Below, piece after piece: positions 4,214 to 61,834 of a stretch of DNA of 64,000 nt. This DNA comes from Cyanosarcina radialis HA8281-LM2. Lineage in GTDB: Bacteria; Cyanobacteriota; Cyanobacteriia; Cyanobacteriales; CCAP-1448. Each line of letters starts with the position of its first letter. The first letter of the stretch is position 1. The notes beneath the pieces are model-generated. The model did no database searches. It saw nothing but the letters and a program-made list of their open reading frames with translations, and was not told where the DNA came from. The stretch is taken from positions 1 to 64,000 of the forward strand of contig JAHHHA010000020.1 of the NCBI GenBank assembly GCA_019359615.1, given 5' to 3'. The position numbers were made by a program, and so were the translations under genes.

Positions 4214-4306
4214 GTTCAGCAGTTCAGAATTATTTACTGTCTCTCCTGTGCCCCCCATCCCCCCATCTCCCCATCCCCCCATCTCCCCATCTCCCCCTCT
4301 TCCCCA

Positions 4307-4681
4307 TCACCCTTGACGGCGACCGAGTTCGTAAATCCCACAAGACATACAAGCCAGCAATCCGATACTAATCGACCAACTGCGCCCTAAACTTAGATCG
4401 ACACCCCAGTTGCAGAGGCTACCGACGAGCAAAAAAGGCACAATGCTGAAAAGAGAGGCAAAAAAAGCATTTTGCGATTCTCTCCCCTTTCGAGTTTTTT
4501 CAAACTCGGTTTGTGAAGTATAAAGCGATCGCTCGGCAAAATTAAACCAGCGGGTGAGTTTATCGGTTATCCAGTCGGTCAAGCCAGAGCAGCCTAAGTA
4601 AAAAGCCAAAGACCACAAAGCTGCCCCAGCGATCGCGGTTGGATCTAAATGTAATTCAAATGGCAGAATCTCTGTTAACAT
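4307..4681 (-). CDS. small membrane protein of unknown function
   Basis: This 124-residue protein has a hydrophobic N-terminal helix (AIAGAALWSLAFYLG), a charged middle (FEKTRKGRESQNAF) and two further hydrophobic segments (LFSIVPFLLVGSL and SISIGLLACMSCG). I recognise no named family. Composition and codon use fit the neighbours and the frame is clean, so it is probably a real cyanobacterial integral membrane protein. Its C-terminus reaches the C-rich tract that follows lspA, and it converges on lspA. Confidence 0.6.
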   Translation of the reverse strand: MLTEILPFELHLDPTAIAGAALWSLAFYLGCSGLTDWITDKLTRWFNFAERSLYTSQTEFEKTRKGRESQNAFFASLFSIVPFLLVGSLCNWGVDLSLGRSWSISIGLLACMSCGIYELGRRQG

Positions 4682-8050: not shown

Positions 8051-8992
8051 ATGACTTCTATAGATTTAAGCGATCGACGAATTTTAGTCACGGGTGGAGC
8101 GGGTTTTTTAGGACGACAGGTAATCAGTCAATTGCAATTGGCGGGTGCCGATGCCGAAAAAATTACCACTGTGCGATCGCAGCAGTTCGATTTGCGGGTA
8201 ATGGAGAATTGCCAGCAAGTAGTTCGCGATTGCGATATTGTCATTCACCTCGCGGCCCACGTCGGGGGGATTGGCTTGAATCAAGCTAAGCCAGCGGAGT
8301 TATTTTACGACAACCTGATGATGGGAGCACAACTGATTCACGCCGCCCATGAAGCGGGGGTGCAAAAATTTGTCTGCGTCGGGACAATTTGTGCTTATCC
8401 CAAATTCACCCCCGTACCGTTTCGAGAAGAAGATTTATGGAACGGCTATCCCGAAGAAACTAATGCTCCTTACGGGGTGGCGAAGAAAGCCTTACTCGTC
8501 CAACTGCAATCTTATCGCCAGCAGTATAGTTTCAACGGCATTTACTTGCTACCAGTAAATTTATACGGACCTGAAGATAATTTCAACCCTCAAAGTTCTC
8601 ATGTGATTCCAGCTTTAATTCGCAAGGTGTATGAGGCCCAAATGCGAGGAGAAAAGCAAATTCCCGTCTGGGGAGATGGTTCCCCTACGCGCGAGTTTCT
8701 GTATTCAACGGATGCGGCTTTAGGAATTGTGATGGCCACTCAATCCTACAACGAGTCGGAAGCAGTCAATTTGGGCACGGGTTATGAAATTTCGATTAAA
8801 GATCTGGTGGAGTTAATTTGCGAGTTAATGGATTATCGAGGCGAAATTATTTGGGAAACCGACAAGCCTAACGGCCAACCCCGTAGGTGTTTGGATACCC
8901 AAAAAGCGCTCGATAAATTTGGATTTAAAGCACAAGTAGGGTTCAAAGAAGGTCTAAAAAATACCATTGAATGGTATCGGCAACACGCTTAG
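8051..8992 (+). CDS. fcl: GDP-L-fucose synthase
   Basis: This 313-residue enzyme epimerises and reduces the Gmd product to GDP-L-fucose using NADPH. The motifs are [10 protein letters not shown] (cofactor), [12 protein letters not shown], the [20 protein letters not shown] block, YGVAKKALL (Tyr-Lys pair) and [16 protein letters not shown]. It is the natural partner of gmd just upstream. A run of AATTCAT-type units precedes the ATG in place of a ribosome-binding site. GTCAAAA heptamers follow the stop (about 8995-9023). Confidence 0.95.
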
Positions 8993-9041
8993 TCAAGTCA
9001 AAAGTTAAAAGTCAAAAGTCAAAACTAATAACTCTTGACCG

Positions 9042-9707
9042 ATGAACGACGAACCATCAACCAATAAAGCCCAATTGCGACAGCAGTTATTGAAAGAACG
9101 GCGATCGCTACCAGTAGAAACCTGGAGAGAAAAAAGCGGTCGTCTCTGTTTTCATTTACAATCTTCCGATCTGTTTGTTGAAGCCAAAACTGTTTTAGCT
9201 TATTTTAGTTTTCGCCAAGAACCAGATCTAAGTCTTTTAATTTTGCCCTCACCCCGCCTGCGGCTCCCCCCTCCAGTCTCCCCTCTCCTTGCAGGAGAGG
9301 GGTTGGGGGTGAGGTCGAGAGGGGTTGGGGATGACGGCAAACGCTGGGGATTTCCTCGTTGTGTAGGTGAGGCTTTGAGTTGGCATCTTTGGCGATCGGG
9401 AGAACCTCTACAAAAAGGGGCTTATGGAATTTCCGAACCCGATCCAAATGCTGCAATTATCGAGCCAGATGAAGTCGATTTGATTCTGGTTCCAGCAGTC
9501 GCTTGCGATGTTAGAGGATATCGATTGGGCTATGGCGGCGGTTATTACGATCGCTTGTTGAGTTTGCCGATTTGGTCGTCCAAAATAGCGATCGGAATCG
9601 TATTTGAATTTGCTTATTTGCCCCAGTTGCCGATCGATAATTGGGATCGATCGCTTCAAGGTGTTTGTACCGAAATGGGTTTAAAAATGGTAGGGTCGAA
9701 CTCCTAA
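9042..9707 (+). CDS. 5-formyltetrahydrofolate cyclo-ligase with in-frame repeat insertion
   Basis: The enzyme converts 5-formyl-THF to 5,10-methenyl-THF with ATP (the YgfA/MTHFS family). The N-terminus shows AQLRQQLLKERRSLP, the middle KRWGFPRCVGEALSWHLW, and the C-terminus the diagnostic GYRLGYGGGYYDRLL. The 221-residue product is about 30 longer than usual. The excess, between residues about 69 and 100, is Pro/Gly/Arg-rich and encoded by a palindromic repeat (9246-9314) that also occurs between genes at 24 and 61.7 kb. Because 69 bases were added, the frame survives. Whether the enzyme remains active is unknown; all recognisable family motifs remain on both sides. Confidence 0.88.
   Translation: MNDEPSTNKAQLRQQLLKERRSLPVETWREKSGRLCFHLQSSDLFVEAKTVLAYFSFRQEPDLSLLILPSPRLRLPPPVSPLLAGEGLGVRSRGVGDDGKRWGFPRCVGEALSWHLWRSGEPLQKGAYGISEPDPNAAIIEPDEVDLILVPAVACDVRGYRLGYGGGYYDRLLSLPIWSSKIAIGIVFEFAYLPQLPIDNWDRSLQGVCTEMGLKMVGSNS
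9246..9314. repeat. palindromic element inside the 5-FCL gene
   Basis: The arms CCCTCACCCC and GGGTGAGG, with inner CCCCTCTCCT and AGGAGAGGGG, form a long hairpin of 69 bases, exactly 23 codons. The GAGAGGGGTTGGGG part is then partly repeated to about 9335. The outer sequence matches the intergenic elements at 24248-24396 and 61713-61834. Confidence 0.88.
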
Positions 9708-9823
9708 ATTCGGCCGAGCGGTGCGGGAGCTTGAGAAGATCGAGGATGAGTCTAGGCAACATCAAGTGATGGGCTGGGCTAAAATTTGAAACAGCAGCGA
9801 TCGGACAAATTATCAGGAAAGCA

Positions 9824-24247: not shown

Positions 24248-24396
24248 GATATCAAACCGCTTAGCAACAGTGGGTTGGCCCTCACCCCGCCTCCGGCACC
24301 CCTCTCCCATGCAGAGACGTAGCATGCTACGTCTCTACACAATAGGGGTTGGGGGTGAGGGCTGGATTCATGTTTTTAATAACCGGATTTAGTATG
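24248..24396. repeat. MITE-like palindromic element with a nested GTAGAGACG palindrome
   Basis: The ends GATATCAAACCGC and CCGGATTTAGTATGA are imperfect inverted repeats. Inside are CCCTCACCCCG and GGGGTTGGGGGTGAGGG arms. In place of the short loop seen in the related element at 61713 there are 36 bases holding the perfect 24-base palindrome 24313-24336 (AGAGACGTAGCA and its complement). The right end overlaps the 3' end of the neighbouring glycosyltransferase gene. Confidence 0.88.
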
Positions 24397-32717: not shown

Positions 32718-32740
32718 CCCCTCTCCTTTCAGGAGAGGGG
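32718..32740. repeat. inverted repeat CCCCTCTCCT
   Basis: CCCCTCTCCT and AGGAGAGGGG flank a TTC loop. These arms match the inner arms of the element in the 5-FCL gene. The 32557-32869 stretch otherwise holds no gene. Confidence 0.8.
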
Positions 32741-61712: not shown

Positions 61713-61834
61713 GATATCAAATCCGCTTAGGAAAAGTTGGTTTCCCTCACCCCGACTCCGGCACCCCTCTCCCGCGGGAGAGGGGTTGGGGGTGAGGGCT
61801 AGATTTATGCTTTTAACAACCGGATTTAGTATGA
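61713..61834. repeat. MITE-like palindromic element
   Basis: GATATCAAATCCGC and CCGGATTTAGTATGA ends with CCCTCACCCCG and GGTTGGGGGTGAGGG arms and the loop CTCCCGCGGGAG. This is the uninterrupted form of the 24248-24396 element. It lies between the kinase start and the next gene. The 61835-62042 stretch holds no gene. Confidence 0.88.

Follow-up and report, generated by a model that had tools for sequence, protein, structure and literature searches.

The window analysed here, the whole stretch of 64,000 nucleotides of Cyanosarcina radialis DNA, contains an open reading frame (ORF) whose match to the 5-formyltetrahydrofolate (5-formyl-THF) cyclo-ligase family is split by a hairpin-forming segment that lies in frame and contains no stop codon. 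Where does this segment come from, and what has its arrival meant for the enzyme? PF01812 was the sole Pfam family matched by the ORF, in two stretches of which the best covered 99–211, and membership of the 5-formyl-THF cyclo-ligases was indicated by both the Pfam domain and the fold. No second gene of this kind was found in the genome; the other six own-genome matches of the cyclo-ligase query were repeat copies, all of which overlap the insert. Short AAAAGTC/AAAAGTT repeats occur at 8994–9030, just upstream of the cyclo-ligase start. The features of the locus are as follows.

9042–9707, + strand: 5-formyltetrahydrofolate cyclo-ligase ORF, 221 amino acids; Pfam PF01812, E = 4.5e-36; PDB relatives 1sou, 2jcb and human MTHFS
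9242–9341, + strand: whole nested palindrome (TTTGCC...GGCAAA), ORF codons ∼67–100; ends placed by comparison with other copies, C35:20070 and C2:96287 among them
9245–9274, + strand: outer palindrome, left half, GCCCTCACCCCGCCTGCGGCTCCCCCCTCC; matched at 24278–24307 (90%) and 61744–61772 (86%)
9277–9316, + strand: inner palindrome, TCTCCCCTCTCCTTGCAGGAGAGGGGTTGGGGGTGAGGTC, inserted within the outer loop; found elsewhere without the outer left half (C16:13159, C39:80203 and C12:32032)
9317–9338, + strand: outer palindrome, right half, GAGAGGGGTTGGGGATGACGGC (GAGAGGGGTTGGGGGTGAGGGC in other copies), from comparison of copies
9273–9326, + strand: low-confidence, presumably disordered stretch, residues 78–95 of the predicted cyclo-ligase; pLDDT <50

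The insertion point follows the EPDLSLL segment. The distance from EPDL to WGF is 38 residues in this cyclo-ligase, against 8–13 residues (usually 9–10) in 42 of the 44 orthologues measured, a set that lacks L031, which the motif search missed, and holds no loop length for L035; some of the named L loci may belong to the same genomes as the G handles. The net gain is therefore ∼28–29 codons. The preliminary description had given an insert of 23 codons, which is too low, and ∼30 Pro/Gly/Arg-rich residues gained. Its coordinates of 9246–9335 (90 nt) are a better fit to 28–29 codons, but the palindrome is nested and reaches ∼9242–9341. In the remaining two orthologues, the EPDL–WGF loop has 19 (L194) and 25 residues (L127), with sequences unrelated to the repeat. 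Since the number of bases gained divides by three and the reading frame is free of stops, we propose that the palindrome is translated in the cyclo-ligase; a candidate tryptic peptide from the insert is LPPPVSPLLAGEGLGVR.

The palindrome at 9242–9341 is composite, a second palindrome occupying the loop of an outer one. Comparison of the copies separates two modules, the outer GCCCTCACCCCGCCTSCGGCTCCCCTCTCC...GAGAGGGGTTGGGGGTGAGGGC and the inner TCTCCCCTCTCCTTGCAGGAGAGGGGCTGGGGGTGAGGTC, the latter also occurring without the outer left half. The copy in galactokinase (GalK) carries a different inner palindrome inside the outer module, and the copy at 24.3 kb carries yet another. Read by eye, a typical copy starts with CCCTCACC or CTCCCC and ends with GGTGAGGKC; the cyclo-ligase copy has one GACG where other copies show GAGG. 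Folded as RNA, 9242–9341 gave −56.9 kcal/mol (z = −3.04), a value equalled by 2 of 200 shuffled sequences, and Rfam gave no match within 8950–9800. The idea that the repeat was selected to have frames free of stops was considered and rejected: three of its six frames are open, while 2000 mononucleotide shuffles left 2.8 open on average (P = 0.60), and thus there is no sign of such adaptation.

A search of the genome, a draft of 6.5 Mb in 65 contigs, with a query of 141 bases gave at least 43 matches (40 of 331 candidates scored), and at many unrelated places parts of the insert were matched by DNA at up to 98%. The exact core hairpin, CCCCTCTCCN{1,14}GGAGAGGGG, occurs at 228 places, whereas the backwards-read control pattern occurs at none. 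Seven contigs examined from end to end (779 kb) contained 58 hairpins whose left arm is made of pyrimidines (at least nine bases) and one of the opposite polarity. The claim that a dispersed palindromic repeat lies in frame in the cyclo-ligase is thus upheld by the open frame, the hairpin and these counts. Within the window, sequence related to the palindrome was found at 24278–24360 and 61744–61797, in keeping with the report of the same repeat at 24 and 61.7 kb; both places lie in MITE-like units. An inner hairpin core lies at a third site.

24249–24395, + strand: MITE-like unit of ∼147 bp whose outer palindrome is interrupted by another palindrome (AGAGACGTAGCATGCTACGTCTCT); imperfect ATACCAAATCCG-type ends, read by eye
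32718–32740, + strand: further inner hairpin core, located between ORFs, from window match and core pattern
61714–61832, + strand: 119-bp MITE-like unit, ATATCAAATCCG...CGGATTTAGTAT, with an outer palindrome, between ORFs; ATACCAAATCCG-type inverted ends

Elsewhere in the window, a CCCCATC-type tandem run at 4250–4307 is capable of forming a G-quadruplex on the minus strand. Of 119 further genomes from the order, 58 contained the core hairpin at least once, the next highest count being 105; the reversed control pattern matched once in each of two of these 58. The compound translated peptide was found in its own genome only among 120 at E = 0.01, and in none of the 119 others.

If the segment is an insertion, relatives should show the site empty, and the preliminary description had proposed an alignment of homologues on these grounds. 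The cyclo-ligase query was matched in 59 of 60 genomes, its own included. All 58 relatives aligned as two pieces, one ending at or before residue 72 and the other starting at or after residue 97; none therefore has the cyclo-ligase segment, residues 73–96 being without counterpart. These empty sites are at the level of other genera, the nearest relative compared belonging to another genus. Distant cyanobacterial homologues carrying the segment as native sequence were looked for among the 58 relatives and 17 named orthologues, and none was seen. Two of the 17 (L127 and L194) have unrelated longer loops at the same place, which identifies the site as a tolerant loop.

AlphaFold2, run with 29 aligned sequences, gave a mean pLDDT of 85 for the cyclo-ligase, with 134 of 221 residues at 90 or above and residues 78–95 below 50. 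The predicted core is thus kept and the insert is modelled at low confidence, between a short helix (64–66) and a strand (101–108), where we would expect it to be remote from the active site. Foldseek returned 12 matches at E up to 0.001, all of them cyclo-ligase family chains, with 2jcb at 1.1e-15 and human MTHFS also among them. Every one of the 30 columns without variation across 28 relatives is retained in the protein, which is ninth of 29 in mean identity, and the gene therefore shows no decay.

The palindrome also interrupts other genes. ORFs of at least 150 amino acids, with at least 20 residues on each side of the insert, hold 16 of the 43 copies listed, eight in each orientation; judged by peptide type against the consensus frames, four frames are used (6, 2, 3 and 5 ORFs), and because the ORFs were chosen as open, the in-frame survival of the inserts is ascertained rather than measured. 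In the 779 kb, 17 of the 58 hairpins fall in ORFs of at least 90 amino acids and 41 outside ORFs. With 84% of this sequence coding according to a crude ORF caller, genes are therefore depleted of hairpins, though far from free of them. One of the 17 is in a 97-residue ORF, two are near an ORF start and two are at a contig end, which leaves 12 in nine ORFs, eight with known domains; the ninth (C2:19165) gave no domain match in the first 278 residues searched.

In PyrD, the insert occupies residues 148–178 (31 residues) and falls between residues 127 and 128 of 4xq6, which are contiguous. Among 28 relatives at the PyrD site, 24 gave a split match that omits the insert, and the other four have a loop of intermediate length. 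In zeta-carotene desaturase (ZDS), the insert was located against a template or profile, and relatives were ∼15 residues shorter in the rows worked out; this net gain and the intermediate PyrD loops indicate that some inserts replaced native loop sequence. A ChlH/CobN-type chelatase has 46 residues where 4zhj has 12, and an S9 peptidase has 41 where 3azo has three. Against template or profile, inserts of ∼13 residues in SufD and ∼19 residues in an oxidosqualene-cyclase-like protein were measured and the GalK insert was located; in HypF, the YrdC domain was matched in two stretches. Further copies are in ORFs for an FAD-dependent oxidoreductase, a metallophosphoesterase and NRPS/PKS-type proteins. 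PyrD, ZDS and the cyclo-ligase were each found as a single full-length copy in the genome, besides a 35% ZDS paralogue. We also considered whether copies between ORFs mark broken genes and rejected this: for 5 of the 41 such copies, no flank pair shared a Pfam family. When 15 copies were sampled from three other genomes rich in the repeat, only one was in a long ORF, which speaks against the generality of decorated ORFs; 7 of the 15 were within 100 bases of a locus end, making this a poor sample.

Some of these genes drew attention for other features. An 827-residue ORF (G000:C8:18502–20985, − strand, L050) joins an epimerase/3-beta-HSD-like domain to a P450, with two palindromes at residues ∼339–377, and is possibly a gene fusion with a repeat-made linker. 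The oxidosqualene-cyclase-like gene (G000:C8:9626–11674, − strand, L118) is closer to human lanosterol synthase (E = 1.7e-135) than to squalene-hopene cyclase (E = 1.3e-44); among 39 relatives, there were only four distant matches (27–29%) at E up to 1e-30. Judged from its sequence, this cyclase together with the nearby P450 suggests a sterol pathway; homologues are known in a few cyanobacteria, according to the accessible part of PMC4919349. At L041:3046–3147 (G000:C56), a long ORF contains purine-rich GREGEGETGRGETRGGGRG and HTPHSTLHT, another repeat type that seems to be translated, and a similar run, HSTLNTPH, follows the palindrome in PyrD.

Several other explanations of the cyclo-ligase segment have to be weighed. 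It could be native to the enzyme of this lineage and resemble the repeat by chance or through low complexity, as the 19- and 25-residue loops at the same place in two named orthologues might suggest; however, those loops are unrelated in sequence, parts of the insert have close DNA matches at many unrelated genome places and no relative searched has the segment, so that this very improbable reading is largely refuted. We give least credence of all to an assembly artefact. The genome is a draft and repeats can collapse, which could have misplaced a repeat inside the gene, but the gene is 9 kb from the start of its 116-kb contig, the frame is kept on both sides of the insert and other genes are interrupted in the same way. 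If instead the insertion spoiled the enzyme, the ORF would be a pseudogene at an early stage, still open only by chance. The cyclo-ligase gene is dispensable in some bacteria under some conditions, and activity is here a prediction from the sequence. Against this stand the intact frame, the 30 conserved columns and a normal mean identity, as well as the open-frame repeats in PyrD and ZDS, enzymes expected to be needed and present in single full-length copies apart from the ZDS paralogue; decay is thus an unlikely explanation.

The remaining two alternatives turn on the hairpin. The palindrome might be kept for a nucleic-acid role, an mRNA hairpin or G-quadruplex affecting translation, with the peptide as a by-product. 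Its strong predicted fold and four G-tracts of 4–5 at 9299–9330 are what such a role would call for, but copies occur in unrelated genes and in both orientations, and therefore offer no common mRNA signal, and the majority of the hairpins counted in the 779 kb are outside ORFs; we regard this role as improbable. Translational bypassing, in which the ribosome skips the hairpin and makes a protein without the segment, has a precedent in the bypassed GC-rich palindromes of some yeast mitochondria, and the hairpin here is likewise strong and GC-rich. Bypassing needs no open frame, yet the inserts are open (in ORFs chosen for openness), and all five tested inter-ORF copies (of 41) are flanked by different Pfam families and not by gene halves. 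We consider bypassing very unlikely.

We therefore prefer, with a probability of about 0.82 for the explanation as a whole, insertion of a REP-like palindrome into a cyclo-ligase loop, where it is tolerated as a translated disordered segment, with the same recurring elsewhere. A dispersed, GC-rich palindrome with a second one nested in its loop would have entered the loop after EPDLSLL; its ∼28–29 Pro/Gly/Arg/Leu-rich residues would be translated as a disordered loop, leaving the enzyme fold and the conserved residues in place. Insertion into other conserved genes would have been recurrent, and copies that break genes would presumably be lost by selection, so that those in tolerant loops and open frames remain. 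A bolder extension is doubtful: that the nested palindrome family is a general source of new protein segments, adding to ∼60–70 proteins in several frames and both orientations, sometimes forming the joint of a fused two-domain protein, with some segments functional. The figure of 60–70 is extrapolated to the 6.5-Mb genome from 0.78 Mb, in which eight decorated ORFs had known domains.

On the preferred insertion reading, palindromic repeats decorate proteins of a cyanobacterium at high density, and do so in enzymes that are easily assayed; it is therefore testable whether the inserts are merely tolerated or are useful protein parts. It also carries a caution, that odd P/G/R-rich loops of cyanobacterial proteins can be repeat insertions and not adaptations.

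How the repeat may have moved was approached through its ends and through candidate mobilisers. Some copies sit in 118–169-bp units with ATACCAAATCCG-type inverted ends; when end pairs were sought in the 779 kb, 8 of the 58 hairpins proved to be in units no longer than 400 bp with ends of this type, and the search brought up no autonomous element for these MITE-like units. Around the cyclo-ligase copy, at 9200–9360, no ATACCAAATCCG-type terminal inverted repeat of a MITE was seen by eye. The repeat shares with RAYT-associated REPs the trait of being a high-copy short palindrome (228 cores; 58 versus 1 in 779 kb), and no GTAG or CGTC tag was seen by eye beside the stem in the copies inspected. 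Y1_Tnp was found at five places in the genome, the fifth at a contig start; the four scanned belong to the IS200 family, and a RAYT as mobiliser was rejected for them, REP_Tyr_transpos scoring at most 22.7 bits against a cut-off of 80. No Y1_Tnp locus has the repeat adjoining the gene, the nearby traces being a single CCCTCTCCC in L040 and, in L041, short arm motifs flanking the gene at distances of 0.6 kb and 1.2 kb. The palindrome is thus neither a tagged RAYT-REP nor, at the cyclo-ligase site, a MITE with terminal inverted repeats. That it moved by way of the MITE-like units, with the ends lost later, or through an IS200/IS605 enzyme acting in trans, are guesses.

Small dispersed repeats of cyanobacteria were reportedly described by Elhai in 2008, and Nezha is said to be a cyanobacterial MITE, small and non-autonomous. 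Our repeat resembles such MITEs in being small and non-autonomous and in the minority of hairpins within ATACCAAATCCG-ended units; the cyclo-ligase copy differs from them in being without these ends.

The preliminary description had likened the insert to Rickettsia palindromic elements (RPEs). According to the accessible text of PMC10969869, a 2024 review, RPEs are palindromic repeats of ∼150 bp that each code for a conserved peptide and lie in frame within genes of unrelated function, where they appear to be tolerated; the review considers it conceivable that proteins of other prokaryotes have evolved in a similar way. The likeness holds for the way the two work, namely in-frame insertion into unrelated conserved genes. 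By description, the basis of this comparison, our repeat differs in being ∼60–100 bp, nested and used in four frames and both orientations. As the 16 ORFs use four frames and not a single conserved peptide frame, membership of the RPE family is unsupported.

A further parallel may be drawn with intragenic REPs. In the accessible text of PMC3733652 (2013), ORFs of several bacteria are reported to contain GTAG/CGTC REPs; over half of these inserts are dimers or groups, coding for 20–30 residues, and REP families are listed for Anabaena, Nostoc and Cyanothece. Our repeat is like these in being a high-copy short palindrome, often grouped, that codes for segments inside ORFs. It is unlike the GTAG REPs in having no GTAG tag at the copy ends (by eye) and no RAYT above the cut-off; any identity with GTAG-12, -15 or -16 would be hypothetical. 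The suggestion that such an insert was not described for this gene stands to the extent that neither 'folate' nor 'formyl' occurs in the accessible main text of PMC3733652, its supplementary ORF list aside; the phenomenon itself is known for REPs. Our literature search, which covered few subscription journals, found no report of in-frame palindromes in cyanobacterial enzymes, that supplementary list apart. With REPs in ORFs (PMC3733652) and RPEs (PMC10969869) on record in the parts of these sources available to us, intragenic palindrome insertion is therefore of an already known kind, and what is new here is this cyanobacterial case, with its unusual density and nesting.
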